From assembly GCA_947561715.1 (NCBI GenBank), contig OX387203.1, forward strand, positions 15,314,001-15,378,000: a DNA stretch of 64,000 nucleotides. The letters are read 5' to 3'. The notes beneath the pieces are model-generated. The model had not been told where the DNA came from. It did no database searches and worked only from the letters and a program-made list of their open reading frames with translations. This DNA is from Ascidia mentula. Taxonomy: Eukaryota; Chordata; Ascidiacea; Phlebobranchia; Ascidiidae. Both the position numbers and the translations under genes were made by a program. Position 1 is the stretch's first letter; each line of letters begins with the position of its first letter. This document shows positions 17,186 to 57,691 of this stretch, one piece after another.

Positions 17186-17402
17186 ATTTGGGTAAAGTAT
17201 GTTTCTACCCAACAATGTTGGGGATCCCCACGAATGTACCCAAGATTTTAAATGAGGTACAAATTAGAATTACCCAAAATAACACGTGGGCGAAAAACCA
17301 TGATACCCAAAAATGGAAATAGGTTATGCAATACCGTTACCCAAGTTGGATTGGGTATCCATTACCTAAAAATATAGTTTGGGAATCCCCACGAATGTAC
17401 CC
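17186..17402. repeat. TTTGGGTA/TACCCAA subterminal-type array
   Basis: At least eight GGGTA or TACCC motifs in both orientations, plus a direct repeat of about 24 bp ending CCCCACGAATGTACCC at 17,217-17,241 and 17,378-17,402. Similar arrays mark both ends of the CACTG element at 42,918-45,616. Here the array follows the copy-3 partner gene, so it is probably the 3' end of a related element, cut by the P-like element that starts at 17,409. Confidence 0.6.
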
Positions 17403-19210
17403 TGTGAGATAGTATACTCTTATGGTAGTCCAACTCCCATTGTGACGTTTTGGGTTCGTTACGCTTGAGCACTTCGGTACGCTGGTTTGTTGTCTGCATA
17501 GAAAATAGGACTTAAATTTGTGTCTTTTTTGGTTGTTTTGAAATAGTGCAGCGAGTTTCATTAATTTTGAAACTACCATACCGAGTGACATTTCCGATCG
17601 ATATATAAAGGTCATGTCCTTGAAGTTGCGATGGGTTACCGATTTGTGTACACTTCTGTGCAGTGGTGTATGATGATATGTTTTGACTATGATGCGATTT
17701 TAAATTTAGTTTGTTTCTTTGAATATGCGTACTGCGCAGTTTCCTCACGTGATAATTTTTTGTTGTAGCGTTTACTATTATTTACAAAATAAATATTATT
17801 AAAATAAACATGCCTGCCACCCACTGTTCTGTTCCCAACTGTAACTGGTCGAAAAGAAAGGCAAAATAGGGAGTAAAAAGAAGTTTGTTTACTATATATA
17901 AACCAGCTTTAGCAAAAAATCGTGAGGAAAGAAAACACAGGGAGGCTTTGACCAACTTTATTCTTTCAATGAGGGATGCTTGTGAAGAGGATAATATACA
18001 TGACATGTTGCACAGAGAAATGTAAGTAGTTAAAGATATGTGGCATCTGCAGCTTTGGGATCTGTGAACGATAAACTTATTGTTATCATGTGTCGCAATT
18101 ACTGCACCTTTATGTTCATCTAACCTGTTGCATCCATATCAGGGCAGCTATTTGTGAAAATCTCATTGGTGACACAGACTTGGACAAAAGTGGAAAGTGC
18201 ACAAAATTAAAACAAGGTGCAAAACCATGCAGAAATTTGCCCAAAAGGTGTCAAGTTTATTCTGCACCACGAAAACAACCAGCTCCGAGAGTGCCACACT
18301 CCTTCAGAAGGCATTCCTCATTGTTGGACGTGGACAAATCTGCAAAGAATTTGTCTGATGTCATGAAAAGTTAGTTCTGTTTAGATTTTTTTTACCAACA
18401 GTAAATGTTTACTAACTTGTATAAATAATTTTTGGAGTTTTAACCTCTTGCAGGTAAATGAAATTGCTACTTCAGACAAAACTGTTATCAATTGGATTTT
18501 CATGAAGGTAATGTGCTTTTGTCCAAGTTGAAGTATGTTGTTTAAACATGTGTAATCTGGAAGGTAATGCAAACTTTATTGCTGTGCAGTAAGAACTATA
18601 TGTTAGTTAACTTGGTTTTACTCTTGCAGAATTACTATAAATGCCACATTGGAAATTGAATCTGTTTTAATTTATGGATGGCCTGTCAAGTTTTTGGATC
18701 TAAACCTGGGTAATATAAAGAATGAAACACTCTTTTCTGTGTTAAGTAAGATATTTTGTATATAAAGGCTCCAACTATGTAGTTGGGAGGACTATCACAG
18801 AGATAAACCTTGACTTAAACTGATTTCAATTTGTGTAACTTAAGTGATGTTAAAATTATAAATTTTAGGTTCAGTTGAAAAGATAAGACTTTGTCAAGGA
18901 ACAACTGGTACAGACATAAGTGAAACTATCCTACATCCATCTTTATACTGGGACACCAAAAACAGAAATGTTACCACTAACATTACATGCCACGCTTGTT
19001 GCTGTACTGTTTGAAAGTCATTTTTATCTACTGCTAATATTTTTTAACAAGTAATTCTAAATTATTATGCTTTTGTTTAGATTGCAATTCCAAAGATTCA
19101 AGCTGTTGCACAGAATACAAAAAGATAAACCAACAGCAATTAACAACACAGAACGTAGGAAATCTTTAGTAATTAAAAGCTCTTCTGGCAAAAGAAAAAC
19201 TTGTTTGTTC

Positions 19211-39559: not shown

Positions 39560-41738
39560 CTATACCAACCTCTGAATGAAGTTCCACAGGTTACTTGCCT
39601 TCTTAGGATACTCTATGTTTAAAACAAAGAAGCATGCAAAGCATATTGTCAATGCTTCTTCAGCTGTTGGCAGGGACGTATCCAGGAATTTTTGAAGGGG
39701 GGGTCCAAATTTTTTAGGGAATTCCCCGATTTTCAGGTACAAACTAAGGTTAATTGTGGGCGAGAATCGCAAAATACGAACGCCGGTGTTCGCGCCAATC
39801 GTCACATTAACGGTGGCTTTTTGGCTTACGCAATTACTGCTTTCAAAGTTAAACAACTAAACGAATTGACTTTCTCGCAAGTAAACCGCTTGTCATTACA
39901 ACGTGGCCACTGAAAACAACGTTTCGTCCGTAAAATGACACTTGTTTCGTAACAATGCAACATGTTTGGTAACAATGCCAAGTGTTCGGTAACAATGCTC
40001 CCTGTTTGGAAACAATGGCGAATGCAACACGATGCGGTTTTTAGGTCAACGTCAAAGAAAATTTCTGGTTTTCACGCGGATTTTGACAAAAAAATACAGT
40101 GGCGTTTGTTTAGTTATCAAAAAAGACCAAAGTATTTCACAAAGGGGGGGGGGGGGGGTCCGGACCCCCCCCCTCTGGATACGCCCATTGCTGTTGGTAT
40201 ATCCACCACCAGTATTTGCTGATCCGCAGTGACTTTAAATGCTGAAGTCTGAAGGATGTTGGATCCTGTAATGCACAATACTTTAGCAAAAATATTTAAC
40301 GAACAATGCCTTATTACAGGGCTTCAAGCCCATGTGTAAAAAAATGCTCATTTTCAAAATGAATTTTCTCTGCAATCTCTGGCAAGCAAATAATGTAAAA
40401 CCATCACCACCACAAAATTACATTTTACAATCCCAACTCTGGGCCGCAACCCAAAGTTTAAGAAGGCCGGCCATTACATACCTTGTGCAATTATGCATGG
40501 AAATATAGGAATCATTCCAGTAGTCATGTTTTCTTCCTAAAACATAAAAGTAGTTGCGCTAACACATAATCACCATATAATATTATCATAAAATACTTAC
40601 AGCAATTACTACTTCATTCACTTCTTCACCAAAGTAGTCCATCAGCAGTAGTATCATTCCCATAATCTCCAACTGAATGGTGTTTGATGCCATTCTTGCT
40701 TCTTTGTTTCGCAGCACGGTTTTTTTATTAATGTGCTTTTACTTTGCAATGACTCAATAAATAAAACAATCCCTGGTAAATGTTTTCTTACATTTTGCTG
40801 CATGACCTCAAAACTTTTTTTGTTGCAAGTTTATACAAGACTGCCATGCCCGGTTTTGTAAAGAGCAATGGAAGACATTAAATCCTTTAGTTGTGATTCG
40901 ATACCATGTAGTTTATCTTGAATAAAAACAAAACACTTCTTTACCTCCTTTTTAACTTCATCCTGACTGAATGCCTTAGCTTCATACATTCTTTGTAAGT
41001 TTTCTTTTGGTGAATTTAAGTCTTGCGACAAGTTGCACAACTGCCAATCATTTTTGCTCTTTTTTGAGGGAATATCATCAGTGCTCGTTCCTGGACGACT
41101 AAGGTTGGAAAGTTTGTATTTTATTTGCAATTCCAATGATTCATGTCCATTGCCAATTTTCTTTCCACACAAGTCAAAACCTTGAAATGAATTTGGATAT
41201 TTTTCAATGATGTTTTTAGACACAGTTTTTACAAGTCCTCTTGGAGGTTTGTTAGCACTAAAAAATAGTTCATCAGCAACAATTCTTACAAATGTCCGCC
41301 TTTGCTTTGGCGAAATTCTGTTCTCCTTATGAAAGGCATCCTGTATGTCACTGGGCAGTTTTTGCCAAGGAATGACAACAGTTGAATGACTTGTAGTTGC
41401 TTCCGTAAAGCTTTCACTAGTTCCACTAATTTCACTAAGTTGCTTAATGATGTTCAATGTGATATGTTGGTGGGAAATTCAGTTTCTTTCTGGAGAAACT
41501 TCACAAATTTTCTTGTTTGCAACGAAGGCATGCGTGATTTAAGGTCTTCCTCTAGCAAAAACTTTAGATCATCTGAAGTATTATCACCAATTTTACGTAT
41601 TTCAGCAACAATTTCGTTCTCATTTTGTGTTATTCCAGCTTTGTGTATACGCTGGAGAATAAGTTCATCCAAGTCGTCATCAACAGGAAGGGTGTCATCG
41701 CTTTCATCAGAACTTTGAATATTAAAAGTACTACACAT
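39560..41738 (-). pseudogene. SAM-like partner (TnpA-like) gene, copy 1
   Basis: Minus-strand order: ORF 41,738-41,454 with acidic start and a SAM-like stretch (DDLKFLLEEDLKSRMPSLQ); after a frame change, ORF to 40,831 with TVVIPWQKLPSDIQDAFHKE, FVRIVADELFFSA and KNIIEKYPNSFQGFDLCGKK; exon 40,695-40,602 (MASNTIQLEIMGMILLLMDY, donor GTAAGT); exon 40,536-40,483 (EENMTTGMIPIFPCIIAQ); final exon from 40,261 (SNILQTSAFKVTADQQILVV) to LNIEYPKKASNLWNFIQRL ending at 39,560. PWQK and FxxxxxLNIxYP are marks of a widespread animal family often named SAMD3-like, of unknown function. It lies directly downstream of a CACTA-like transposase on the same strand. A hAT MITE splits the last exon, and the first frame change also disables it. 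Confidence 0.65.
39671..40189. mobile_element. hAT-type MITE (519 bp), TSD GCTGTTGG, in a coding exon
   Basis: Ends CAGGGACGTATCC and, inverted, AATGGGCGTATCC. Perfect 8-bp duplication GCTGTTGG at 39,663-39,670 and 40,190-40,197. The interior has a poly-G/C block and four ~20-bp repeats starting CATTGTT. Taking it out leaves one duplication and rejoins the exon text ILVVDIPTA to EEALTICFACFFVLNIEYP in frame, confirming the ends. Confidence 0.92.
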
Positions 41739-41959
41739 TCTTTACATAAAATCATTCTGCAATATAATAAAAAGTTACACAAAACTAGCCGGTCATATAA
41801 AAAGTATTTTCTAGTTATTACTATAATTAGTTCCACGATAGCTCACACATTTGATTACAAGGGCATTACATTCAGTGAGTGAAAATGGTACAATTTGCCG
41901 GGTAAAGGAAAATCCCCAACATGAAACGTTTCTGAATGGTCATAATGAACAAGGGAATC

Positions 41960-42917
41960 TTTCATTTTACTTGCATGCACTTATGCTTGGTAAAGTTGGT
42001 GCTTCACAGATAAAGTCATCAACACATTTTCTTGCACATCTTTTGAAGTATGCATGCTTGCTTTCTAAACGCATTGTCTATGGTCTAATTAAAGGCCCAA
42101 ACTGTACAATTAAATGCATAAGAAAGTGATGTTTTGGTTTTAACCGGATGTCGGGGAAGTTTTCTTTCCTCATGTCCAAGTAATCCCGAATAATAACATT
42201 TAGATATGATATTTCACCTGTTGATATTTTTGGTGCACAAACTATTTCTACTATTTGTCGAAGTAACAACAGCAAGTTCCACAGTAATATTAAAGGCAAA
42301 CGTCTTAAAAGACACCAATTTTCCAAAGCTTGTCCAATTACCTTTAATCCTTTCTTTGGCACTGTTGGTGGTTTACTTGCTGCATCTGCACCTGTATATG
42401 CAAATCGAACAATTCTTTCATTTAAAACTTTGTAAGAAAACCACTTTAAATTGACAAAATGTTTGACGTACAATGCAACATCATATGCCACAACACCCTC
42501 AAACAAATCATGTCCTAGGCACGATGGAAGAGAAGGGTTACATACATGAAATCCTGACAGGCAGTTAAACAAACAGGTTTTCTGCTTTGATTTTGTTCAA
42601 ATCCAATTTGTATGATTCCACTGAACGAAGCCCACCAAGAAAATATGGACATAAAGCAAACTCCTGCTTTGTACAGTAGCAAAATCGACAAAAATATTCT
42701 GCATTAAAACATTCAATAAATCCCCCACGGTGTGGGAACCTAAATTATCACCAGCAGTATGTTTAACATACACTTGTACTTATGTCCATCAATGTCCAGT
42801 CCAGTACTTTTAAGCTTGTTTAGCTCAGCAATTAATCGACTAAAAGTTTTTTTTTGGTCAAACAATTTAATGTGCCTTTCATAAACAAGCAACACTAACT
42901 GTATATTGTCTAAACTG
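41960..42917 (-). pseudogene. CACTA-like transposase, main part
   Basis: Minus strand from the insertion border: SLDNIQLVLLVYERHIKLFD, then (frame change) HTAGDNLGSHTVGGFIECF with FCRFCYCTKQEF, (frame change) CNPSLPSCLGHDLFEGVVAY, WCLLRRLPLILLWN, EIVCAPKISTGEISYLNVII, LKPKHHFLMHL and, after another shift near 42,065, ESKHAYFKRCARK. This is the core of a widespread animal transposase family with N-terminal C2H2 fingers that I assign, from memory, to EnSpm/CACTA-like elements. At least three frameshifts make it dead. The plus-strand ORF 41,851-42,129 is antisense. The partner gene follows at 41,738 on the same strand. Confidence 0.65.
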
Positions 42918-42929
42918 CACTGTAAACTA

Positions 42930-43135
42930 ATTTGGGTAAAATTACAAAGGCAACTTTGGGTACAATGTTAACATACCCAAAGTTTTTGGGTAAAATGCTG
43001 CTTTACCTTATGATTTATAACCAAAAGAAAGTTACCCAAATAATTATACCCAAAATTATTGGGCTTACTGTTGTTTACCCAAAAGTGTTTGGGTAAAGTG
43101 ATGCTTGTATTGTACCCAAAAAAAACCATACATTA
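42930..43135. repeat. left subterminal TTTGGGTA array
   Basis: About nine copies of TTTGGGTA or TACCCAAA in mixed orientation within 200 bp. The array resembles the clustered TNPA-binding motifs at the ends of plant En/Spm elements in arrangement, though the motif differs. Confidence 0.8.
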
Positions 43136-43768
43136 TCAATTTTGCAAACAAGTCTGAACCTTACATCGTCGGTATGGTTTGCACACATGTCAGTTTAAGG
43201 ACTAGCTAGCTTATAAAGAAAGAATGACAAAAATTTCATTCAGACGGCATAGCTACAAATCGCTTTACGCCGTTAGAACTTTTGTTTGCACGTTTACCGG
43301 GTAATCAACCACTCGCTGCTGCGAAATGTTTTTGACACCGGTTGATTACGTAATGCTGCGATAGAAATAAAAATAGTTTATTTGTATTATACTCTTACTA
43401 TGGTGTATTATCCTCATAATGAGCTCATAATAAATCTCAATCTTGTGAAAATAAACCACTTGAATTATCTGAATTTTATTGAAATCTGCTCGACGAAACA
43501 GATTTACTATTAAAACTATTTTTTTAAAGTTCAAACAATGTGCGCGTCACGCCTGAATACTCACTGAAAAGGGCGCCAAACTAACTTGCCTCCCCAGTCT
43601 TAGTTCTTTGAACTTCTTTGTCTCTACCTGCGCGAACGTGATTATCGAACGTTTGGGCACGCCTTTTTCTTAATTACAGGTAGTGTTGTAAGCTGTTTCG
43701 TGTGTCATTTTATAAGCTAATCAAAAAAAGTGAAAAAGACTTAGTATGGATTTAAGCATTTCAGGGTT

Positions 43769-45303
43769 TAATTGATTTTGTCAATGTCAAGATTACTCTG
43801 GATCTGGAAGACGTCCCACAAGGGGAAGTTCTTCAAATAAATGCTGAAATTGAGAGTAAGTTGTACATATACTTCTTCAAACGTGGAAAAATTGCCAATA
43901 CTTTGATAAATTACACTTAACTTGGAAAAGGTAGGCTATAAGCTATATATATATATATATATTTTGCAGACCAAGCCGACATCTAAAGAACGAGGCGTTT
44001 AGATGCTTTCTTGGAGCAGTACAAATCAGCTCGTCTTGGACTAAGTGCAACAGATGCCAAGGTTAGAGTGAAGTATAACTTACCAAGTAATTCAATAACC
44101 ATGCTTATTTATTTACATTTCACAGGCATTTTGGTACAAAAAAATATCAGACCGACTAAATGCGCATGCTAAAAAACAGCGAAAGTGTCATGGGTACCCC
44201 TAAATCAAAAGAGCATATAACAACCCTTCTTTAAAGCGAAAAAAGGTTTCTCATCAATCAAATGAAGTACATACACGAGGCGAAAACTTGTATGACGAGG
44301 CAAAAGAAGTATGGATTTAAACTTTTTAAAGCTTTGTTTTGATGGATTTTTGACTTGATTATTTTAGATCCTGCTGCATGAATTTAAACAAACAACTTTG
44401 CTGCGCAATAAAAACTTATTGCGGAAAAAATGGAGGAAACATTTTGTGTCTGCAAAAAACTTTGTTTTGGAAAATTGTTACATATACATCAAAGCCACAT
44501 ATTGACAAGTCAGAGCTCCACTGCTGATTCTTTAAATCTTCTTCTGACTTGCCAATTTGTAGCGGCTTTGAACCATAGCTTGACTGCGGTACTGTAAATT
44601 TATGGACTGAATTTAATGTAATTTCTATTTCTTGTAGTTGCTTCGTGAATTTAAAAGAATACAAAATTTTACTGATGAAGCTGCTTTGAACAGCATTGCC
44701 AAAAACTTGTTTCAAACAATTATGAAATATTCTTCGGGAAAACCAAACAAAACATCCTATATGAAAAAAATATTGGACTTTTTGCCATTTGATGAAAATG
44801 ATTGCTTTACTGGTAAGCCTGAAAAAACTATCACTTTGGCCAGGTCATTAGTGTGAGGGCAATTTTTTTATTGACCTAATGTACTCATTTTATATCCACA
44901 AGACTAGCAAGGCTATTTGCTCCCAAAAAGTTATTCTGTGCATAATTATTTAAAATTGGGCATTTAACTAAATTGTTTTACTATTTAGGCCAACACAACA
45001 TTTGAAGATACCAGGGCCGACTTTGGAGATCGGCAACAAACTGTGTTGATTGTATATGGAGACATTTTCTCGCCGCAAAAAATGTATTTTTTTGCGGAGA
45101 AGAACCCTGTGCTCAGTGTGGACAGCATTTCTAAAGACATCATAGCTTTATTTGCTGTGTATTATATTCTCAATTATCAATACTGCCCACATATTACCAA
45201 AACACTGCAATTTCTTCAAACATATCTGCTTAGTATTCCTGAAAACTCAATGTATGATTCAGTGTGGGAGTTAAAACTTCAACTTGACAAAATAAGCCTG
45301 TAG
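43769..45303 (+). pseudogene. SAM-like partner (TnpA-like) gene, copy 2, inside CACTG element
   Basis: Plus-strand pieces: about 43,775-43,857 (ITLDLEDVPQGEVLQINAE), 43,990-44,061 (LDAFLEQYKSARLGLSATDA then GTTAGA donor), 44,127-44,205 after TTTCACAG (FWYKKISDRLNAHAKKQRK), 44,638-44,812 after TTGTAG (LLREFKRIQNFTDEAALNSI, SYMKKILDFLPF) and the last exon 44,990-45,303 (RQQTVLIVYGDIFSPQKMYF, SKDIIALFAVYYILNYQYCP). The final exon aligns in kind with ALTICFACFFVLNIEYP of copy 1. A stop or frame change occurs near 43,985. Function unknown; as the only gene in an element with subterminal motif arrays, a DNA-binding role like plant TNPA is a reasonable guess. Confidence 0.6.
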
Positions 45304-45434
45304 TTGTTTGTGTTGACTGTAGTTATTTCAAATGTTCATGTTCTTTCTACAGAATGACAAGAAACAATAAATGTAATTCTTCGAAAAAACAAGCTGTGCA
45401 ATGTCTATGAATATTGAGCAAAAAATGACACAGA

Positions 45435-45605
45435 TTCTGGGTATAGTGAATTTAAACCCAAAATAGTGACCAGATAAAATTGGGTCGTGTGTGTTTCTAT
45501 ATTGGGTAAATCTACAGGGTAAGAAGATATCTAACCCAAAATTTTTTGGGTATGAATAACCCCAATGAACAGACCCAATTTTTTGGGGCTTTTTTGACCC
45601 AAACT
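45435..45605. repeat. right subterminal GGGTA/ACCCAA array
   Basis: About eight GGGT or ACCCA motifs in both orientations just inside the right CACTG end, mirroring 42,930-43,135. Confidence 0.75.
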
Positions 45606-45616
45606 GGTTGACAGTG

Positions 45617-45650
45617 TGGTTCTTGTAAACACTGGAAGGTTGCCTAAAGG
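45617..45650 (-). pseudogene. CACTA-like transposase, upstream piece
   Basis: On the minus strand this short piece reads LGNLPVFTRT up to the border of the CACTG element and continues in frame at 42,917 (SLDNIQLVLL). Further upstream sequence from about 45,650 matches the GGCTGATxCCCACTG end of another repeat, so the N-terminal part of the transposase is missing here. Confidence 0.6.
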
Positions 45651-45800
45651 CTGATTCCCACTGGCTAACGATACGTCAACGATTGGGAAATACCCGCGCA
45701 TCGCCCGATTTTGCAAACCGTCTCTGATATGCCGCTAAGGTAGCTAATGCCCGCCAATGTAACTTATGCCGCTAATACCTGCTTGTGGACCTAACGCCGC
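45650..45800. mobile_element. possible MITE end GGCTGATTCCCACTG
   Basis: The end GGCTGATTCCCACTGG followed by CGATACGTC is shared, in inverted sense, with the end of the CGTCG-rich repeat at 56,815-57,004. The other border is not recognised. Confidence 0.35.
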
Positions 45801-46029
45801 TAATAGAGTCATCATAGACAATTCAGAAAATATTGCAAGGAAACATCGAAACCTGTCGAAAGTTGTTATTGATGATTGTGGTGCCTGGATGAAAAATAAA
45901 ACAACCACTAGTTATTATTCGATGGACACAAATGGAAGTTTAAAATACATTGTAAAGCACAAAGGGAAGTTTAGTAACGTTTTAAAATCAGGAAAAGACA
46001 GAACGTATGAACATCTGGTAAACCATTGC
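45790..46029 (+). other. uncharacterised ORF cut by the BEL LTR
   Basis: Plus-strand frame with NIARKHRNLSKVVIDDCGAW and NGSLKYIVKHKGKFSNV, ending by running into the LTR at 46,030. Beyond the element (52,985) the frame continues only to a stop at about 53,040. No recognised domain; sequence across this junction is also the minus-strand LINE, so coding status is doubtful. Confidence 0.25.
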
Positions 46030-46485
46030 TGTAACACGACCAGCTAGCCTTGTCACAGGGGTTTGACCGCACCGTCAGGAAAGAACAGTATTCTTTTATT
46101 CTGCGGCACAGTTAACAAACTGTGACACGTTCACTAAACAAACAAACACATATTAGCGAACAGTCACATGCAACATAACAGACAACATTATTGAACTCAC
46201 CAATACAAGATGCACAAGGACCGACTTCGAATAGCATTCGGTTGCACCAGGTGAATTTACGTTATGCAGTCACTATTTTGTTATCAACTTTAAGTCAATT
46301 CACTGCAATTCACAACAGATATTTAATCACCAAAACAGTTTAATGCACGCGGACAAGTTCAACACGTGGCAAACATTAAGACTGCTGGCACTAGCCTTGC
46401 ATCATACAGTTGGTAGGGGCATTATGACGTTTCCATTGTTGTGAAATTTCCTCACATGGAAAGTTACGCGCATAGAAATCTTACA
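46030..46485 (-). repeat. BEL 3' LTR
   Basis: 456 bp, begins TGTAACACGACC on the plus strand and ends ATCTTACA. Differs from the other LTR by C/T at about 46,358 and T/C at about 46,472. It carries the polyadenylation region of the minus-strand element. Confidence 0.97.
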
Positions 46486-46500
46486 CTCCCCCCCAAAATT
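46486..46500 (-). other. polypurine tract
   Basis: Minus strand AATTTTGGGGGGGAG directly before the 3' LTR start TGTAAG: the primer site for plus-strand DNA synthesis. Confidence 0.85.
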
Positions 46501-46565
46501 GATAAGTCGCAGCGACGTTCAATTTTTACAACACAATTTCGACGCGCGTTTGTATCAATCGTTTA

Positions 46566-49500
46566 TCAGTGTTTCTCAGCGACCATTGTCGCCGGGTCAT
46601 CGTGTGGCAGGTGATCGTCTCCTCTCCCATCAACTGGTACGACCATACACAGTTTGTGAATGGGTCTTCGCACAATCGTTCCTCTCGATCGATTTCGAAC
46701 ACTGCGGACCACACCAAAGTCATCAGGATTGGTTGATTCAACGCGACCGATCGACCAAGAACGTCTGGGGGCAGCATCATCAACCAGAAGGACAACATCA
46801 CCGACCTGGACATTTCTCTTCTCATGATGCCACTTCTGGCGAGCGATGATTGTACGCAAGTATTCCCGAGACCATCGTCTCCAAAATTGATCTGCAATAT
46901 ATTGGACCTTGCGCCAACCCCGGCGCGCGTAGCAGTCACGATCACTTGTGACGGTTGGAGGCATCCCTCCGGACGGATTTATCCTTAGCAAGTGATTAGG
47001 TGTCAATGGTGACTCACCAACGTCATCAAGTGTGACCGGAGTCAGGGGTCGCGAGTTGATAATTGATTCCGCTTCAAGCAGAAACGTTTGCAGTTGATCA
47101 TCGTTGAGGATTCGTTCGTTCGTCAGCAAGGAGAGGACGCGTCGAACAGACCGAATCATCCTTTCCCAGGCACCTCCCATGTGACTTGCACCAGGTGGGT
47201 TAAAGTGCCACTGAACTTCTTTCTTTTTGAAGAACTCCTCTATTTGGTTCTGGTTCCATTCACGTACGGCGTCACGAAGAACACGCGCAGCACCCACAAA
47301 ATTCGTGCCGTTATCGGAATAAACTTGCAGCACTTCGCCGCGACGAGCAATAAATCTGCGAAATGCATTTATAAAGGCATCGGTGCTTAGGTCATGTGCC
47401 ACCTCGAGATGAATTGCTCTTGTAGTTAGGCATGTAAAGAGACAACCCCATCTCTTAACTTCGCAGCGCCTTTGCTTGACGACTAGAGGTCCGAAATAAT
47501 CGACTCCTGTAAATGCAAAGGGAAATTCATTCATTTGCAGGCGAGCTGGCGGTAAATTGGACATAATTTGCCCTTCAGGCTTTGCGTTGCGACGCCGGCA
47601 TACCAAACATGCGCGGAGAACACGTCGCACCGCCACTGCACCTTTAACGATCCAATAGCGTTGGTTCATCTGGGACAGAATGTGGTTCACGCCAGAATGT
47701 CCACACTCTGCATGGAAATGGGAAATTAGCAACTCAGTCAGGTACGAGTTGTGAGGCAAAATGGCAGGATGTCGGGCCTCAAAAGGAATAGGCGCCTTTT
47801 CCAAACGACCGCCAACCCTAAGCATTCCATCAATCATCACAGGATCCATACGAAAAACTGCCGATGACTTGCTTGGTTTCTTCAAGTTTCCATCTGGGGT
47901 AATTGCTATCATCCATTGTGAGAAATGACCTCGTTGAACATATTTCACCAACTCGGCTTCAGCCGTCCGTAGCTCATCAACTCTCAGGGCCGAGGAGCCA
48001 AATCTCGCGGTTCTCGCACTTCGCAGAATTGCCTTCAAACGCAAAAACCATGCAGCGGCACGTTTAAGTTGATACAACGAAGAAAATTTCGTTATTAAAA
48101 CATCTGTGGGAGGACATTTCTCTACCACAGTAAACACACCACAAGGTTTCTTATCAAATACATTAACCTCAACCGGATCTGTAGCAGCGTCACCAAACAT
48201 ATTTGGCCAGCAGTCGGGCGTCTTCTTGAGAAACGATGGTCCGTCAAACCACAATTCACTCCTCACCAGGGCATCGGCTGAGACTCCCCTCGAAGCCAAA
48301 TCAGCAGGGTTTTCCGTCGTCGGAACATGTTTCCAGTTCTTCACGCAGGTATTCTTCTCGATCATTGCCAAACGACGAGAGACAAACAACGGAAATCTTC
48401 GTTTATCATTTTTAATGCTTTGCAGCACCACAGACGAATCCGTCCAAAATATAGAGGGACGCAGGTCCAAACACATTTCCTTTCTGACAATCAGTTCCAC
48501 GTCCACAGCCAGAACAGCAGCCATCAATTCCAACCGTGGAATATAATTTTCACCCTGGGGTGTTAGGCGACATTTACTCATAACCAAGGTACAGGTCACT
48601 TCGCTTTCTTTATTCGTTGATCGGAGGTAGCACACAGCTCCGTAGGCTTCTTTGGATGCGTCAGCAAACACATGAAGTTGACTTCTTATCACATTGGCGC
48701 TGACACCAAATCCAAATGATCGTGGAATGCGCCTTTCCTGCAGGCTGTGTAAGCAGACTAACCACTTCTCCCATTTTCGTAAGTCCTTAGCAGGCATCTC
48801 TTCGTCCCATTCAATTTCTTGCTTGCACAAGCTCCTATAAATGAGCCGGGCTCGCAACACGACGGGGGTAACAAAACCCAATGGGTCGAATAGAGAATTC
48901 ATAGTTGACAAGAGGCCTCGGCGAGTGCGCGGCTTCATTGGCAACGAAACAGCAAACAGAAATGCGTCAGCATGAACATTCCACTGTATACCAAGCACAC
49001 GCTCTTGTAATTCAGCATCCAGTGGGCGCACCTGCAAAGCCATTGATAATTCATTTTCCGGTAAGCGATCAAGAATCTCCTTGCAGTTTGACAACCACTT
49101 GGTCAAGCGAAATCCACCCTTCTCAAGCAAGGAGCGCAGACCATCGACAAGCTGCAATCCAGTTTCAACGTCTGCTACCGATGTGAGGCAGTCATCGACG
49201 TAAAAATTACGTTCAACCGTAGAGGCAACAATGGGTTCAAATTCACTCCCAAAATCACTAGCGGTTTGACGTAAACAAAAGGTTGCGCAGCTTGGAGACG
49301 AAGTTGCCCCGAAGAGATGTACATTCATTCTGTGGGGCACAGGCTCACCTGACAGGTTCCCACCAGGCCACCAAAGGAAACGCAAACTGTCACGATCACG
49401 AGGGGCAACTCTCACTTGGTAAAACATGGCCTCAATGTCAGCTACCAAGGCAATTGGCGACTTGCGGAAACGCAACAAGACGCCAAGTAGACTGTTGACA

Positions 49501-50993
49501 AGATCAGGACCTTGCATCAACGTTTGGTTCAAAGACAGTCCACGGTATTGAGCTGCGCAATCATACACAACACGCAACTTACCAGGTTTGTGAGGGTTCA
49601 CAACACCATGATGAGGTATGTACCACGTCCGATGTTTGGTAATCAGTTCCTCCTCCGGTACTTCTTCGGCAAATCCTTTGTCGATTGTTGCTTGCATTTG
49701 CTCAGCGTACTTCTGATGCATTTTCTCGTCGTTGCTCAATCGACGTTTCAGCGATTCCAATCTTTTGTTGGCCATCTTCAGATTGTTAGGCAAAACTTGG
49801 TGATCATGTCTCCACGGCAGTGGCAATTCATAATGTCCATCAATGTATTGAACGGAGTCCTTCATCAATTGGTACGTCCTCCGATCTTCCCTGGAGAAAG
49901 GACTTCCAAACAATTCGTCTTCTTCTTTGGGGATCAGGTCACTCTCGTCGCTTAGAAACATGGTATGGGCGGTGTCCATGACGCAAGTAAAGTTGGCATC
50001 TGCAGCAGATTTGCGGACAGCCTCGAGCGATCGACCTAGCAAAGACCATCCAAGAGGCGTCTTCACAGCATCTGGGCATTCGTCGTTTCCAGGACGACTG
50101 CACTGTACACGATGTGCCACAGGTACATTAGCACCAATCAACAATGTGACAGTTCCACCAGCAATGGAAGACAGTTGTAGACTCCTTATTGATGGGTGCA
50201 TCTTCCGAGTTTTCCAGGTGGGAGACTTCACAGGTATTTGTTCAACAACCACTACTTCTGGCAAGTTTATTTGCTCACCTCCATCAAGTGGTTCGACTGA
50301 CACGGAAATTGCGATTGTGTCCAGTTTTTGCGGTGTCGTCATTGTGTTCAACAAAATTTGTTTGGGTCGTCCAGACGCACCTAATTTGTCTACCAACTTA
50401 CGTTCACAAAACGTTGTGGTTGAACCCTGATCCAGAAAAGCGTACGTGGCAATGGAAGTGGTCCCATGGCGAACAACGACAGGTACAACATTCAGGTACA
50501 CACTAGACGCGTTGACACTTGCACTGTACTCGCGACTTCGGATCGTAGCACAAGCAGGATTGTCATTCTTTACCCCTTCGGATACAGTAGGAGGGGCTGG
50601 GTAATGCAGCAATTTGTGGTGCGATTTACCATCGCATCCGTTGACTAAACAACTTTGACTGGAATCACAGTCTCTAGCACGGTGGCCAGCCTTTAAACAC
50701 TTAAAACACAAACCCATTGAACGCACGAACCTGCGTCGATCATTCCACGACATTTTCCTAAACTGGACACATGCGTCAAGAGAATGGCTCCCGTTGCACA
50801 ACAAACACTTCATTGGCACGTGTTTTTTGTCGTTAATTTTCGGCGCAGAAGTCGCCACAGTGCTGTGCGCAATTGCCTTCGGCCGGCGGCTTCCTTTGTT
50901 GTCTTCCTTTGATGAATACAGCGCCTTACCAAAAATCGAGTTTGCAACCTTGCTTTTTAGTGCTACAAACTCTGTAAGAGTCGCAAAGGTAGC
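46566..50993 (-). CDS. BEL/Pao pol: knuckle, protease, RT, RNase H, integrase
   Basis: Follows the in-frame TGA that ends gag and stays open to 46,566. Counting from codon 50,858: Cys/His knuckles near residues 18-75 (CLLCNGSHSLDAC, CFKCLKAGHRARDC), aspartic protease motif FLDQGSTTTF at about 142-150, RT with IALVADIEAMFYQV and catalytic NFYVDDCLTS, RNase H region LHVFADASKEAYGAVCYL, the BEL-type HHCC zinc region ILSQMNQRYWIV and CLVCRRRNAKPEG, integrase core GVDYFGPL, VYSDNGTNFVGA and HMGGAWERMIRSVRRVL (D,D,E). The C-terminus ends at VAEKH. All enzymatic motifs are intact. Product would be the polyprotein that copies and inserts the element. Confidence 0.95.
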   Translation of the reverse strand, partial: ATFATLTEFVALKSKVANSIFGKALYSSKEDNKGSRRPKAIAHSTVATSAPKINDKKHVPMKCLLCNGSHSLDACVQFRKMSWNDRRRFVRSMGLCFKCLKAGHRARDCDSSQSCLVNGCDGKSHHKLLHYPAPPTVSEGVKNDNPACATIRSREYSASVNASSVYLNVVPVVVRHGTTSIATYAFLDQGSTTTFCERKLVDKLGASGRPKQILLNTMTTPQKLDTIAISVSVEPLDGGEQINLPEVVVVEQIPVKSPTWKTRKMHPSIRSLQLSSIAGGTVTLLIGANVPVAHRVQCSRPGNDECPDAVKTPLGWSLLGRSLEAVRKSAADANFTCVMDTAHTMFLSDESDLIPKEEDELFGSPFSREDRRTYQLMKDSVQYIDGHYELPLPWRHDHQVLPNNLKMANKRLESLKRRLSNDEKMHQKYAEQMQATIDKGFAEEVPEEELITKHRTWYIPHHGVVNPHKPGKLRVVYDCAAQYRGLSLNQTLMQGPDLVNSLLGVLLRFRKSPIALVADIEAMFYQVRVAPRDRDSLRFLWWPGGNLSGEPVPHRMNVHLFGATSSPSCATFCLRQTASDFGSEFEPIVASTVERNFYVDDCLTSVADVETGLQLVDGLRSLLEKGGFRLTKWLSNCKEILDRLPENELSMALQVRPLDAELQERVLGIQWNVHADAFLFAVSLPMKPRTRRGLLSTMNSLFDPLGFVTPVVLRARLIYRSLCKQEIEWDEEMPAKDLRKWEKWLVCLHSLQERRIPRSFGFGVSANVIRSQLHVFADASKEAYGAVCYLRSTNKESEVTCTLVMSKCRLTPQGENYIPRLELMAAVLAVDVELIVRKEMCLDLRPSIFWTDSSVVLQSIKNDKRRFPLFVSRRLAMIEKNTCVKNWKHVPTTENPADLASRGVSADALVRSELWFDGPSFLKKTPDCWPNMFGDAATDPVEVNVFDKKPCGVFTVVEKCPPTDVLITKFSSLYQLKRAAAWFLRLKAILRSARTARFGSSALRVDELRTAEAELVKYVQRGHFSQWMIAITPDGNLKKPSKSSAVFRMDPVMIDGMLRVGGRLEKAPIPFEARHPAILPHNSYLTELLISHFHAECGHSGVNHILSQMNQRYWIVKGAVAVRRVLRACLVCRRRNAKPEGQIMSNLPPARLQMNEFPFAFTGVDYFGPLVVKQRRCEVKRWGCLFTCLTTRAIHLEVAHDLSTDAFINAFRRFIARRGEVLQVYSDNGTNFVGAARVLRDAVREWNQNQIEEFFKKKEVQWHFNPPGASHMGGAWERMIRSVRRVLSLLTNERILNDDQLQTFLLEAESIINSRPLTPVTLDDVGESPLTPNHLLRINPSGGMPPTVTSDRDCYARRGWRKVQYIADQFWRRWSREYLRTIIARQKWHHEKRNVQVGDVVLLVDDAAPRRSWSIGRVESTNPDDFGVVRSVRNRSRGTIVRRPIHKLCMVVPVDGRGDDHLPHDDPATMVAEKH

Positions 50994-52433
50994 TCATTTT
51001 TCAGTGTCATGCTCAATCTGTGCGGACATCGAAACCCAGTCCTTTCGCATGCTAAACGGGAGTTTCCTAATAACAGCCAACATGACATCCATGGAATCAA
51101 CACTAGAAGCATGTCTTATCTCACCATGTAGTGCCGTACAGCATTTGTCCAACAGCACAGATAATTTCATAAGACCGTCGGGGTCGTTGTCCTTGACAAC
51201 AGGAGCTGACATCAGCTGTTCTTCGCATCTTTGTGCGATAATGTGAGGTTGGCCATATTCGTTGTACAAGGTTTGCCAGGCCAGCCTGTACCCTTCGGCT
51301 GGATCTTTCGCGTTAAAGCGTTCAATTTTTTCCCGAATATGGGGCTTACAGTGCTGTACCAAATACAACAGCCGCATCTCATCATTGTGGGCCTTCTTAG
51401 CAATGTAGGTATCAAACTGTCGTACGAATAGCCAGTAATTTAGTGAATCACCATCAAATTTGGTTACTTCAGGACTCGGCAAGTTCACATGGTATGCGTC
51501 CTGATACGTCTTTGGTAGTGGCGAGATATTTTGGGGACTAGGGCAACATCTATTTGCGTCTGCACGAGGGATTTCACCAAACGTACCAGTCCTATGCTTC
51601 TCGATGCGTGGTGCGGGCACGTTCACGGGCGCTTCCATTTGTTGCGCATTTGACCTAATTTGTGGACACGAGCCCCGTACAGCATTTGACGGCAACTGTG
51701 AGCTCGTATGTTGAAAAACATTTGACAGTAATCGTGGGCGAGGGATAGAAATTGAACTACCTTTTGTAACAGACGCCAGGCTTGAATTACCGATAGACTC
51801 TTCCTCCCATGCCTCCACTTCAGCTTCAGCGAGTTGCAAATCGTGGCGCATTTGCGCAGCGTGCTTCTCCGCTTCTTCGCTGATGCGCCGGGCTTCATTC
51901 TCTGCCTCACGTCGAATTCGTTCCGCCTCTAGCTCGGCCGTACGACGTGCACGATCTGCTTCCAGCTCCGCCGCACGACGTAGTCTATCTGCTTCTTCTG
52001 AGGCCCTTCGTACATTTTCGGCTTCTTGAGCACTTGCGAATTTCGCAAGCTTTAGTTTCACCTTACTGCGTCGAATTTCACTTCGTATAGAACTCGAGTG
52101 AACAGACAACGCGTCGGCTGGTGACAATGGTAGGGGAACGGATCTAGGCTGCGGATCATGCAGCTTCGATATCCACGTTGCGACCCTTTTATCAAATTCT
52201 TGTTTGTCTCGGCAATAATCTCGCCCACGCGAGATTATCTCAGGTAGTTTATCACTATCCGACATATTTGAGTGAAGTTCAATTAGCTTATCAAAGTTTG
52301 CATTTACTTGGGGCAGGAACTCACGTAGCGCTGAAAGATCTTGCGGCTTTTTCATAAGACTCTCTGCGCAAGCGTAGCTATCTTGTAGAGCCTTTAAAGC
52401 CTCTACTATTTCGTTTTCTTGATCTTCCGTCAT
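50994..52433 (-). CDS. BEL/Pao gag
   Basis: ATG at 52,433 (MTEDQENEIVEALKALQDSY), an alanine/arginine/glutamate-rich coiled coil at about residues 130-210 (repeated RRAAELEADRARR type units), then the retrotransposon gag region SPEVTKFDGDSLNYWLFVRQ and WQTLYNEYGQPHIIAQ, ending HDTEK then TGA at 50,994. The pol frame is the same frame, so gag and pol form one reading frame split by one UGA. In most BEL elements gag-pol is one polyprotein. Confidence 0.93.
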   Translation of the reverse strand: MTEDQENEIVEALKALQDSYACAESLMKKPQDLSALREFLPQVNANFDKLIELHSNMSDSDKLPEIISRGRDYCRDKQEFDKRVATWISKLHDPQPRSVPLPLSPADALSVHSSSIRSEIRRSKVKLKLAKFASAQEAENVRRASEEADRLRRAAELEADRARRTAELEAERIRREAENEARRISEEAEKHAAQMRHDLQLAEAEVEAWEEESIGNSSLASVTKGSSISIPRPRLLSNVFQHTSSQLPSNAVRGSCPQIRSNAQQMEAPVNVPAPRIEKHRTGTFGEIPRADANRCCPSPQNISPLPKTYQDAYHVNLPSPEVTKFDGDSLNYWLFVRQFDTYIAKKAHNDEMRLLYLVQHCKPHIREKIERFNAKDPAEGYRLAWQTLYNEYGQPHIIAQRCEEQLMSAPVVKDNDPDGLMKLSVLLDKCCTALHGEIRHASSVDSMDVMLAVIRKLPFSMRKDWVSMSAQIEHDTEK

Positions 52434-52528
52434 ACGGTTTACTTGTGATGCAATTTCACGGCAATGTCCGTGGTGACCAAATCAATCGTCGATCCTTCGC
52501 TTGTTGACGATTCCTAGTTTGTTAACGA

Positions 52529-52984
52529 TGTAACACGACCAGCTAGCCTTGTCACAGGGGTTTGACCGCACCGTCAGGAAAGAACAGTATTCTTTTATTC
52601 TGCGGCACAGTTAACAAACTGTGACACGTTCACTAAACAAACAAACACATATTAGCGAACAGTCACATGCAACATAACAGACAACATTATTGAACTCACC
52701 AATACAAGATGCACAAGGACCGACTTCGAATAGCATTCGGTTGCACCAGGTGAATTTACGTTATGCAGTCACTATTTTGTTATCAACTTTAAGTCAATTC
52801 ACTGCAATTCACAACAGATATTTAATCACCAAAACAGTTTAATGCACGCGGACAAGTTTAACACGTGGCAAACATTAAGACTGCTGGCACTAGCCTTGCA
52901 TCATACAGTTGGTAGGGGCATTATGACGTTTCCATTGTTGTGAAATTTCCTCACATGGAAAGTTACGCGCACAGAAATCTTACA
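52529..52984 (-). repeat. BEL 5' LTR
   Basis: 456 bp, same ends as the other LTR, two differences. It holds the promoter of the minus-strand element; transcription would start here and run towards 46 kb. I did not assign a tRNA to the primer-binding site just inside (after TGTTACA the sequence reads TCGTTAACAAAC). Confidence 0.97.
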
Positions 52985-54430
52985 ATTGCTGTGCAATGTC
53001 TTGTGCCGTGGCCACGTTTTTGTCTGATCATACAGCTTGGTAGTATGGCAGCGATAAGGACTGTGTGTTGCTATTTTTAAAGCTCTATTTTGCAGGACTT
53101 GAAGATGATGTAAGTGTGTCTTATTTGCAAAACCCCATGATAATAAACCATATGATAGGTGTGGATGAATAAGAGCATAGTAAACAGCTCGGAGTGTTGT
53201 TTGATTGAAGATGTACTTAAGTCTTGCCAGAACACCAGTATTCCTCGCCACTTTGCTACTAACCGATTCAATGTGATTTTTCCAAGTGAGATGTCTGTCA
53301 ATTGTAATTCCGAGATATTTGGTGGTTACGACTTGTTCTAGCTCTTGGCCTTTGAGATTGAGGTGGAAGGTAGGTAGTGGTCCTTTGTTGTTGCTTCCAA
53401 ATAAGATGTATTTAGTTTTCTGGTAATTATGTGAGAGCCTGTTTGATTCCAGCCAAATACCAACTCTTTTCATTTCTTTGTTTGCCAACTCTTGCAATAT
53501 TTGTAAGTTTTTTCCTGACATCCATAGACATGTGTCATCGGCGAATAGCCTGCTATTAAAGCTTGTGGAGTTTGGCAGATCATTGATGTAAATTAAAAAC
53601 AGCAGTGGGCCGAGAATTGAGCCCTGAGGAACACCACAAGAGATTTTTTGAACGTTTGACGTAGCTTGAGAAATGATAGTGTATTGTTGTCGGCATTGTA
53701 AGTAACTTTTGAAAAATTGGAATGTGTGGCCTCTAAATCCTTAAAACTCTAATTTCTGCAGGAGGATTTGATGATTGACCGTGTCGAAAGCTTTGGCAAG
53801 GTCAAGAAAAATTGTTCATGTTGTGCAATTTTCGTCTTTGGCTGTAACAATGTGCTCATGAATTTCTGCTACGGTCATGCTGGTGGAGTGGGATGCCCGG
53901 AAACCATTTTGACACTTTGATAACAGTTTGAACTTTTCCAAATAATTTATCATTCGTTTATATATAAGCTTTTCAAAAATTTTGGCTAATACTGGCAAAA
54001 TGGAGATTGGCCGGTAGTTATTTTTTAGTTGCACATTGCCTCCTTTATGAAGGGGAATCACCTGTCCCACTTTTAGGATATTTGGAAAGGTGGATGTGGC
54101 AATGCAATTGTTATACAGCTGGCACAAAATTGGTGCAAGCACAGGAGCTGCTAATTTTACAAGTTTAATTGGCAAGTCGTGAGGACCAGTGGCTTTATTT
54201 GAGTTTAATAGTGTTATGGTATTAAATACCTCCAATTCTTCTATATCCAGGAAAACAAACGAATTTGAAATAGGATTTTTCAGGTAGTCTAATGGTGATT
54301 TTGAGGTGGTAGGAATTGTTGATGCCATAATATTTCCAATATGTGAGAAATATTCATTGAATGCATTTGCTATATCGATAAGTTTGCTTATTAAAATATT
54401 GTTGTCAAGAATGGGAGATGTGAACTGTCC
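52985..54430 (-). pseudogene. non-LTR retrotransposon RT (jockey/CR1/L2-like), truncated
   Basis: Minus strand: IANAFNEYFSHIGN (linker typical between endonuclease and RT), LNSNKATGPHDLPIKLVKLA, VGQVIPLHKGG, NNYRPISILPVLAKIFEKL, GFRASHSTS, then after a frame change AKAFDTVNHQILLQKL, SCGVPQGSILGPLLFLIYIN, RLFADDTCLW (catalytic FADD) and KYLGITIDRHLTWKNHI. Broken by a frameshift near 53,815 and a stop near 53,745. The apurinic endonuclease part is missing (5' truncation near 54,430). The BEL element interrupts it at 52,984; the ORF text that continues into the LTR (to 52,901) is not part of the LINE. Confidence 0.88.
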
Positions 54431-54955
54431 AGTCTGCAGAATATGGCAGCTGCACGCACGAGCTATTTTTCAACTTATTTTTTTGCACGCCAATTTTATT
54501 TGAATGTCTGAACATAAAACAATCAACGGAAAACAGTTGAATTACCGCATGCATCCATAAAACAAACAATGAATAAACGCGGAATTTTTCATAATTAAGG
54601 CTAGTTGGGTGTTTCATACGAAATCAGAATGTTTTTCGACTCGTAACTTTTTTTTATTGAAGTGTTTGTTGTCTATTTTTGTGCGCTATTTAACGCAGAG
54701 TGACTTGAACACTAGAAGGCGGCAAAAACCGAACCCTCAGCTAATAACAGTCCGACTCCAAACAATTAAAAGGTATAACAAAATTATGTTCGAAAATATT
54801 GAAACATGTTGGCACTGGCAACACGAGACGTTATACATTATTGGATGCTTGTCTCGGGGTTCAAAGAACGTGTAAATGAATGAATTCGTAAAAACATTAA
54901 CAAAAATAAAAGAAACTTGAATATAAAACAAACAAGTTAACATAGCACATCACTG
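54431..54955. other. no gene recognised
   Basis: AT-rich sequence between the LINE truncation and the hairpin repeat; only short ORFs. Confidence 0.4.
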
Positions 54956-54959
54956 GAGT

Positions 54960-55108
54960 CTTGCATGGAAATGTGGTTCTGGCGCCCTGGCTGGGCGCTT
55001 CTGGCGTCTTGCTCGGCAATGTGGTTGTGGCGCTCTGACAGAGCGCTTCTGGCGTCTTGCTCGGCAATGTAGCTGTGGCGCCCTGGCTGGGCGCTTCTGG
55101 GGTCTTGC
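54960..55108. repeat. three 48-bp repeats, each with a GC hairpin
   Basis: Units contain TGGCGCCCTGGCTGGGCGC, GGCGCTCTGACAGAGCGC and again GGCGCCCTGGCTGGGCGC, followed by TTCTGGCGTCTTGCTCGGCA. The first and third can fold GCGCCC/GGGCGC, the second GCGCTCT/AGAGCGC, so both arms of the stem change together. It starts just downstream of the stop of the minus-strand gene at 55,115. Confidence 0.85.
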
Positions 55109-55114
55109 TAAACG

Positions 55115-56461
55115 TTAACCTTGTTCATTAAGAATAAAACTTGAAACTCTTTGACCCACTCTTGAAAGGACCTTGCCCTCTGTATACCGTGCTCGACCTC
55201 TAGCATCAATAAATATTGGCACCCGGTGACTAGGCAATTTAAATTCTTCACAGCCGTCGAGGTACAGGGCTGCAATCTCTTTCAGTGTATTCCTGCACTG
55301 AATAGGCATTGGGAACACCCAATCGATGTTTGTCCGTCGGACAAGAGTGTCGTTTGACTGACCGCCAGTTTTTAACTGGCTTTTCATTACTGAGTAGTAT
55401 AACTCAACGACTGCCTCAGAACCGCCCATTGCCAAGGCCACATCGAGGGCTATGCAGAACTCTTGGCCTGTTGCCGTAAACAGTTCCTCGTTGGAATAAA
55501 AGCTCTGATAAACAGATACTTCATTGAGAGCTGCGAAACAGATACCATCCTCAAATGTAAATTTATAGGTGTCTTCCATGTCAGTACTCGAATTGAAGGA
55601 GTTTGGAAGATCCAAGGCCGCCCACTTCCAAACCAAACCATTGGTTTCTGCACTGAGCAAAGTTATCCCAAACAACTCTAAAAAATCACTTCTTTAAACG
55701 AGCTCAAAACTCTTTGAGCGTATACAGGATGCAAGTTGAGGCTTGGATTAGTCGCGCATAAATCCTTCACGTGATTTACCGAGCACACGTACCTGAAGAA
55801 CTTGACAAAGCTGTCATTGCCATGATTTTCAAGCATTGCCCTTTCCCCCATTGTAAACTGGTCAACACTCTCAGCAACCAAATTCAAAATGTCGGGCATA
55901 TACAGACAATTGGCCAGAATACTTGCTGCTTCCGGCACGCATTTGGTCATGCGTGCGTCAAGTCGACTGTGCAAGGCATCGCATAAGCTAATCAAATCAT
56001 ACAAACAGGCAATCGTTGGGTTGCCGCATCCTCCATTCGACCACTTTTGTTTTCACAGGCCCGCAGATCACTTCCTTGCCGTTGGGGCATACAACCCAAC
56101 CATCTACCAACTTTATGTTGCAGAACTTGCCGTCGTCGGAACAAATGTCGTTGAAGTGCTTATACAGTTTTGGAAACAATGCCCTTTCGAGACAGAGTAT
56201 ATCTTCTCGAACCTGTTTCGACAAGTTTTCTTTCATTCTTCGAATTATAGCTTTTAACTTTGGCTGACTTTCTTTAATGCTTCCAAGTTCTGTGAGAACT
56301 GTGTTTAACTTTTCTTGAATAAGTTGTTTGTTGCCTAACACTTCAGTTAGCAAATTGTCCACTTTGACGGACAAAGCAGCAACAGATTGAGGTGCCATTG
56401 CATTAATGTCTATGACCTTATTCAAATTCTTATTCAAGAGCTCCGCGTTGACCTTATTCAA
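55115..56461 (-). pseudogene. uncharacterised gene in three frames
   Basis: ORFs 56,461-55,997, 56,004-55,678 and 55,675-55,115 follow one another with frame changes near 56,005 and in a T6 run near 55,680. Part 1 has a coiled coil (NNLLTEVLGNKQ-type heptads around VDNLLTEVLGNKQLIQEKLN). Part 2 has DLISLCDALHSRLDARMTK and FVKFFRYVCSVNHVKDLC. Part 3 has ATGQEFCIALDVALAMGGSE, AVVELYYSVMKSQLKTGGQS and IDWVFPMPIQCRNTLKEIAA. I recall similar proteins in cnidarians and fish where they occur as repeated, unannotated, transposon-associated genes; no function is known to me. Two homopolymer-type shifts could be sequencing errors. Confidence 0.5.
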
Positions 56462-56814
56462 ATAGAATAAATGACTGTAGCAAAAGCACTTTTTGATAAA
56501 CTACTGATGCTGCATGCAAACATCTTGTGCATATTCACTCTTACATAGGCTATATATCAAGTCCTAAAATTGCATTTATTTGTAAGCTATTACAATTGTT
56601 ATTATGATAGTTGTTTTAATATAGCACATGTTCACTAATCACACATGAATCATTACAAGTTTGCTTAAATATCAAAAAAAATAAGGAACAAATTAATTTT
56701 GTATAAACCTAAATCATTATTCACCAGTAGTGAGCATTAAAACAATCCTAAAACACTTGTGAACAGCACAGCGAATCATATTTTCAACTCTACAACACGC
56801 TATTTCGCTATGAT
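56462..56814. other. no gene recognised
   Basis: AT-rich spacer upstream of the minus-strand gene; may contain its promoter. No recognisable motif. Confidence 0.3.
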
Positions 56815-57004
56815 GTGCTTACGACGCACGACGGAGTAGAACTCAATTCTACTTGATCGTAGCGTCGTTAGATCGATTTCTTTCGTCGTAAGCGGCGCCG
56901 CCGAATGCTTCTCCGACGGCGGTCCGATGCAGTGGGCATACAACTGCTTCGACGGTCGTAACCGACGTATCGTAAGGTCCTTACGACGGCAGTGGGCATC
57001 AGCC
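56815..57004. mobile_element. CGTCG-rich MITE-like repeat
   Basis: GC-rich island in AT-rich surroundings with many CGTCG/CGACG motifs, two copies of GCAGTGGGCATMA (near 56,932 and 56,989), and an end CAGTGGGCATCAGCC shared with 45,650. Left border not defined. Confidence 0.45.
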
Positions 57005-57121
57005 TTTACACTAAGTATACTGCCAAGACTTTTGTGTTTTTTTTTCTGCTTGAACCCAATGGATTGACCATTTCAAATGAGTCTTGATACAATTTCGGTA
57101 CTCTGAATTGTTTGAGTTACA

Positions 57122-57499
57122 TTATGCTTTCTTGTTATGTGTGATGTAAAAGATAAAGTTGCAATCTGTGTAGGGACATGTCACAGAAGTGCCCTCACAT
57201 ATGTGACATTTCATGTGTACAATCAGATTTTTTAAATTACGGAATTGTTTTTTGCATGAAGAATCGGTACACAAGTATAATTTTTCTGCAGTCATTTTTC
57301 GCTCACAATGTAAATGCTTTCTGTTGTGGTGGACTTTAAGTAATGTATACTTGTTGTAATGTGAGGTACAGTGGATCACCGGGCATTGGAAAGTACAATT
57401 AACTAAGTTTCGGTGACTTGACAAATGTCTTAGTTTAAAAATACTATCTGTGGCAGATCCATATTTGTAACCACATATATAACACTCTACAACACTCAT
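57122..57499 (-). CDS. C2H2 zinc-finger exon, N-terminus of a transposase-type protein
   Basis: ATG at 57,499 opens MSVVECYICGYKYGS with the pairing H..H of a first finger, FQCPVIHCTSHYNKYTLLKV with HHNRKH, LCTDSSCKKQFRNLKNLIVH with MKCH, and VTCPYTDCNFIF with a final Cys pair. The spacing and the HICEGTSVTCPY link match the N-terminal fingers of the same transposase family whose core is at 41,960-42,917, but it lies 15 kb away and no core follows it here. The last finger lacks its His pair before the stop, so the exon may be truncated or spliced. Confidence 0.55.
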   Translation of the reverse strand: MSVVECYICGYKYGSATDSIFKLRHLSSHRNLVNCTFQCPVIHCTSHYNKYTLLKVHHNRKHLHCERKMTAEKLYLCTDSSCKKQFRNLKNLIVHMKCHICEGTSVTCPYTDCNFIFYITHNKKA

Positions 57500-57691
57500 T
57501 TTGTGTACCTTATCAAGGTTACAACAATATAACTATTTTATATATATATATCTATACACACTATACCAAAGCTTTGTGGATCCAATCCGTAACAAAAAAA
57601 AATCTTCGTCACTAATATGTGAAACACGGCGGCAATCAGAAACAATGTAAAAATACACGTGGCAGTGTAAAATTACATGGAGTTTATTGAA

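Follow-up and report, generated by a model that had tools for sequence, protein, structure and literature searches.

The closest described counterparts of the element reported here are the non-autonomous derivatives of maize En/Spm and soybean Tgm, which carry internal deletions, keep their termini and subterminal arrays and are mobile in trans (PMC2613891). A TNPA-type protein binds the arrays of maize and soybean CACTA elements, whose deletion derivatives move in trans, and the array-binding proteins of different elements often have no relation to one another (PMC2613891). TNPA of Spm and the TNPA-like CACTA proteins are second proteins beside the transposase in elements with subterminal motifs at both ends, and in this respect they resemble the second gene, here called the partner, of the ascidian elements described below; any sequence relation, like array binding by the partner, is putative. 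With respect to gene plan, En/Spm and Tgm produce alternative transcripts of one unit (PMC1636069), whereas two divergent genes are found in the present case; moreover the host here is an animal, the ends are CACTG and the duplication is 2 bp, compared with 3 bp for soybean Tgmt*. SmTRC1 and the animal TRC elements are likewise CACTA-related transposons of animals with 2-bp flanking repeats, but their ends start with CCC and their ORF carries a Transposase_21 domain (PMC1636069). Transib, RAG1 and BbRAGL, which enter the comparison through their fold, differ from the present elements in that these have a 2-bp duplication and a predicted C-terminal BAH-like domain, and in that the second gene, judged by eye only, is not recognisably RAG2.

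The element lies at positions 42918 to 45616 of the window, namely the 64,000 nucleotides of the ascidian Ascidia mentula that were analysed, and is a whole non-autonomous CACTG element of 2,699 bp on the plus strand. It is flanked by a target-site duplication TG (42916-42917 and 45617-45618) and bounded by the terminal inverted repeat CACTGT, at 42918-42923 on the plus strand and at 45611-45616 on the minus strand (ACAGTG on the top strand). TTGGGT(A) arrays stand at both ends, the left one consisting of TTTGGGTA / TACCCAAA at 42931-43120 and the right one of TTGGGT / ACCCAA at 45456-45602. In either orientation, 9 TTGGGT motifs lie within the first 250 bp and 7 within the last 250 bp, with 0 between; sequences generated from these ends by a first-order Markov model have means of 0.70 and 0.45, and a maximum of 4 in 2,000. 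The inverted ends, the 2-bp TG repeat and the subterminal motif arrays of the original prediction are thus present at the bases where it had placed them, and its claim that the element is defined to the base agrees with the identical borders of 15 copies in the assembly and with empty sites at two loci, L069 and L070. Its assignment to a class, a CACTA-like (EnSpm) element that has no transposase and sits inside another transposase, was likewise borne out.

Searching the assembly with the two ends, as had been proposed, gave 20 left-end and 21 right-end matches, counts which include partial matches and are both lower bounds. We read 20 loci, two of which are halves of one copy, and both borders are present in 15 copies; weaker end matches lie outside the loci read (e.g. 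C70:2593902, C52:9349939 and C2:17475327). All 15 copies start with CACTG and end with CAGTG, and the dinucleotides flanking them are identical in 14 of the 15 (TG, TA, CT, CA, AT and AA), the exception being L031; at 1/16 per copy, the chance of at least 14 matching pairs in 15 is 2e-16. Neither differing borders nor the lack of a second copy, the two outcomes that had been named as speaking against the prediction, was observed.

The host is another EnSpm-like transposase gene on the minus strand. Its 3' part, degenerate and 90-95% identical to L069, occupies 41535-42917 and may extend below 41535; a further 31 bp of the same gene follow on the other side of the element (45617-45647), and the upstream continuation, which lacks about 0.6 kb of L069, is found past a second insertion at 57008-57503 and may extend above 57503. 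When the 2,699 bp and one TG are removed, the minus strand reads ...LGNLPVFTRTSLDNIQLVLL... across the junction. The proposed search for empty sites gave two uninterrupted copies out of the two read, L069 and L070, each with a single TG inside an open frame, of 869 and 534 aa respectively; of 120 joined flank bases, 88 align and 87 are identical, the remainder being lost to the second insertion. The claim that excision restores the frame of the host is therefore real as far as it goes, yet the restoration is only local, because the second insertion at 45648-57007 cuts the host 31 bp upstream; further stops and gaps are present elsewhere in the gene of the window. That second, larger insertion in the same host transposase has inverted ends AAGGCTGATKCCCACTG, and a BEL/Pao retroelement is nested in it at 46030-52984, with LTRs (46030-46485 and 52529-52984) that are 99.6% identical and an ORF at 46566-50993 on the minus strand, in which Pao peptidase and integrase models score above cut-off and the RT model below cut-off.

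A full-length copy with both a transposase and the partner gene, of the kind that was to be looked for, was found in L042. It is 6,699 bp long, shares the ends of the window element, is flanked by an AA duplication, and has the transposase on one strand and the partner on the other. Its partner has seven exons, delimited by eye, and all exons of both genes are open; the transposase contains C2H2 zinc fingers, Zap1_zf1 scoring above its cut-off. L042 is the sole transposase-bearing copy with both ends found in the element's own family. Both genes are also found, at 98.5-98.9% identity, in a 12.5-kb copy (L044+L045), in which the match ends about 85 bp before the element's end, T5 matches in two pieces and a nested insertion lies inside. 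The nested element (L044 5640-6344, on into L045) has an Ulp1 protease and a PHD finger and, by eye, a SWIM-like and MULE-like look.

With L042 as reference, two stretches are absent from all 14 transposase-less copies. The first spans about 3.0 kb, holds T2-T5 and the greater part of T1 of the transposase exons, and corresponds to L042 252-3221 in 12 of the 14, to 208-3221 in the window copy and to a stretch starting at 241 in L031; its right edge is 3222 in all 14, and its left edge 251 in those 12, 207 in the window copy and 240 in L031. In the window its junction is at 43124-43133, as aligned to L042, with about 10 bp shared at the junction, and a remnant of T1 (zinc-finger region) with stops remains at 43132-43241 on the minus strand (element 215-324). 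Exons T2-T4 were found in none of the 14 copies and T5 was not found in 13, L041 having a 29% match only. The second deletion, L042 4100-4658, removes partner exon 2, which was sought in the 14 copies and found in none; its left edge is 4099 in all 14 and its right edge 4659 in 13, with 4726 in L043, and its junction in the window is at 43940-43961. What is left of the partner lies on the plus strand: exon 1 with a frame broken near its start (43746-43854), exon 3 frameshifted (43971-44061), exon 4 with an in-frame stop (44126-44311), exon 5 truncated and frameshifted (44368-44475), and exons 6 and 7 open (44638-44817, and 44989-45300 with 104 aa). The stop in exon 4 is at an identical codon in 13 of the 14 copies; L031 aligns in pieces and has its stop elsewhere. 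The element is thus a member of a single internal-deletion lineage of a two-gene element, in which the partner is a fossil. In one locus, L039 (C71:11898086-11902419), the 5' part is of the deletion type and the 3' part, about half, is 95% identical to full-length L042; it looks recombinant and suggests gene conversion between defective and full copies.

Since at least 14 copies have been amplified with no large transposase in them, it could be argued that the short elements are an autonomous family and that the so-called partner is the real transposase. We regard this as next to impossible: the partner in the amplified copies lacks one exon and carries stops, and the same-ended L042 encodes a DDE-type transposase, which is again found next to the partner in families B and C.

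Selection on the later partner exons after the deletion was examined in 13 copies, consisting of 11 two-ended copies and the partial L046 and L047, with L029, L039 and L043 left out and with expectations taken from the non-coding mutation spectrum. Exons 5-7 have 16 synonymous changes, 32 nonsynonymous changes and 1 stop, compared with 11.9, 34.4 and 2.8 expected (P = 0.11), and the density of changes is 0.074 in coding and 0.071 in non-coding sequence; on these 49 changes no selection is detectable, although weak selection could have escaped a sample of this size. When the window copy was included, the counts were 18 synonymous, 41 nonsynonymous and 1 stop (P = 0.20), and with 7 of the copies they were 12, 25 and 1 (P = 0.22), in agreement with the first run; the recombinant L039 and the decayed L043 were dropped from all three runs. 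An early pair, L033-L030, had a dN/dS of 0.21 on 9 changes, a candidate signal of selection that was gone on pooling the 13 copies, and the dN/dS of 0.64-0.93 for L029 was not used because its frames in exons 1 and 5 had been misread. Between L042 and L033 the difference amounts to 6.1% in the coding sites of exons 5-7 and to 11.6% in non-coding sites, with a dN/dS of 0.29, a comparison indicating that the partner gene had been constrained before the deletion.

The ends of two sibling families, B and C, are of the same kind and carry the TTGGGT motif, and B also shares the gene plan. Family B is represented by L071, with 7,701 bp, an AA duplication, the divergent gene plan and about 50% protein identity. 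It was found via a partner search, which favours partner-bearing copies, and end searches were done as an offset; these gave four copies with both ends, excluding two partial left-end matches. Two of the four are full-size by end distance, L071, which was read, and one on C2, which is known from its end distance and from matches to both genes. L073 (C52:18052560-18057000; 3,687 bp, TA duplication) and L074 (C70:716450-721000) share one deletion, of L071 element positions 3376-7375, which is the transposase gene, and L072 matches the first 2.0 kb of the element only. In L073 the counterparts of partner exons 1, 2, 4, 5, 6 and 7 are open with no stops, the counterpart of exon 3 being located in neither L071 nor L073; exon 6 and a portion of exon 5 are gone from L074. 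Differences from L071 number 7 of 1404 coding and 16 of 1956 non-coding sites in L073 (P = 0.30, a test with no power), and 3 of 1224 and 15 of 1750 in L074 (P = 0.05). Family C, with 7,148 bp and a TA duplication, is known from its two end pieces only; by end distance, three of its copies are full-size and a fourth is a derivative of about 1.4 kb (C52:4264805-4266178), which can hold little of either gene, and a further transposase-bearing copy (C71:18577404) has no partner-side end that was found. In the window itself, 82 bp at 17328-17409 (C71:15331328-15331409) are 91% identical to a subterminal end of family C. In more distant transposase families (C71:2613563, C2:4690883, C71:3856301, C69:18079891 and similar) a relative of partner exon 7 lies about 2 kb off, on the same strand as the transposase rather than divergent.

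These copies bear on the proposal of the original prediction that the element is cargo- or regulator-only, a reading on which the partner would be functional, be kept by selection and repress or help other copies in trans. Exons 6 and 7 are indeed open in most of the copies aligned, and L073 has lost its transposase gene and keeps six findable partner exons without stops. For the lineage of the window element we nevertheless reject this reading, which is highly improbable, because exon 2 is missing (14 of 14), the stop in exon 4 is shared (13 of 14) and selection after the deletion is undetectable; in the window copy exon 1 is broken as well. The lineage descends instead from a two-gene element by the two shared internal deletions. 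An intact second gene without a transposase is not found in this lineage. L073 comes close, with six exons open and no transposase, and partner-only elements may therefore exist, the window element not being one; still, partner-bearing copies without transposase occur in family B, but the short derivative of family C can hold little of either gene, so retention of the partner is no general rule.

The identity of the two proteins was approached through profiles and predicted structures. D358, D448, C469 and C472 do not vary among 26 homologues of the host-type transposase, and H677, H681 and E701 hardly do; a predicted model places D358, D448 and E701 as in an RNase H-like fold, and C(2)C and H(3)H are both present in this class (C469 and C472, H677 and H681), where they lie between the second D and the E. 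The transposase of L042 keeps YYDGFE, MDNL and RFEAKH at matching places, judged by eye. In the transposases of family A, that of the element, and of family B half of the zinc site has gone, with S in place of the first Cys of C(2)C (L042, L071) and M or L in place of the second His; the positions of the site are 1777-1797 and 945-971 of the L042 element on the minus strand, and it was located also in L071 and in P0001-P0008. Transposase_21 (tnp2) of Pfam matches 16 of the 26 host-type homologues at E <= 1, the best at 3.4e-6, and P0010, a homologue of the window's host transposase, reaches 12.4 bits where the cut-off is 28.6. Of the Pfam transposase models none matches the scanned exons of family A, and Transposase_21 is also without a match in those of family B. 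When the transposase exon of family A and the exons of the partner were compared by sequence with Pfam and PDB, C2H2 fingers were the one useful match.

Structural matches of the transposase model are best with RAG1, BbRAGL and Transib, and its core is predicted to be RAG1/Transib-like. Together with the weak tnp2 matches, this could place the superfamily beside EnSpm, as one of its sisters, for example Chapaev, Mirage or Transib. Such a placement is very unlikely in our judgement, as the 2-bp duplications, the CACTG ends and the subterminal arrays fit EnSpm. Chapaev and Transib make duplications of 4-5 bp (5 bp in Transib), and here the duplication is 2 bp. The PDB is not known to us to contain an EnSpm structure, and therefore RAG1 as the top fold match is expected either way; the lack of one from the fold matches listed is uninformative. 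The host-type transposase class, with its DDE, C(2)C and H(3)H, fits EnSpm/CMC. Two separate models predict a BAH-like C-terminal domain, in residues 744-871 of P0010 and in residues 161-297 of P0002, a homologue of the family A transposase, and such a predicted tail on transposases of this kind is unexpected.

For the partner, no Pfam match above cut-off was obtained with the exons scanned. The best SAM profile, SAM_KIDINS220, matches exons 1 and 2 of L042 at E = 0.16, which is below cut-off, so the partner's earlier description as SAM-like is weak, and its most SAM-like part, exon 2, is missing in the window. A search for relatives of the partner returned 1 protein, and no publication was found that joins EnSpm and a SAM domain; neither the partner nor a BAH domain in such a transposase is described in the titles and abstract beginnings of the matches listed.

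Taken as a whole, the element is very probably an internally deleted, non-autonomous CACTG transposon (EnSpm/CACTA, CMC) from a two-gene ancestor, which was mobilised in trans, amplified and landed in an EnSpm-like transposase. The ancestor had two divergently transcribed genes, for a DDE transposase and the partner, and in one copy of it the transposase gene went missing together with exon 2 of the partner, while both termini and the TTGGGT arrays were kept. This deleted copy was then most likely mobilised in trans by the proteins of full-length relatives such as L042 and multiplied; such relatives would supply the transposase, and perhaps the partner, to any copy that keeps ends and arrays, the arrays being probably read by the partner or by the zinc fingers of the transposase. 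One descendant landed in a transposase gene that belongs to a different EnSpm-like family, and its insertion produced a 2-bp duplication.

A wider reading, which is tentative and in our view rather doubtful, concerns the full-length relatives. Maize En-102 is a partner-only (suppressor-only) CACTA element, RAG2 brings a PHD reader to RAG1, and the RAG recombinase chooses its targets by chromatin state through RAG2. By analogy, the ascidian elements might form an animal two-gene CACTG lineage whose RAG1-fold transposase has its own histone-reading BAH domain, as a counterpart of the PHD of RAG2, and copies of the L073 type might be array-bound regulators in trans, equivalent to a suppressor-only Spm.

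The locus itself is mostly ordinary: a clean and base-exact animal example of a non-autonomous CACTA-type element, for which empty sites are known and the origin by deletion can be traced, and fuller relatives in the genome would account for the spread of such copies. Less ordinary are the full-length relatives, with a divergent second gene that was formerly under selection, a RAG1-like predicted core and a predicted BAH-like domain, and the most interesting leads lie outside the window, in the open partner exons of L073 and in the BAH-like tail of the transposases. If the BAH-like domain reads histone marks, target choice by chromatin state would become testable in these transposons.
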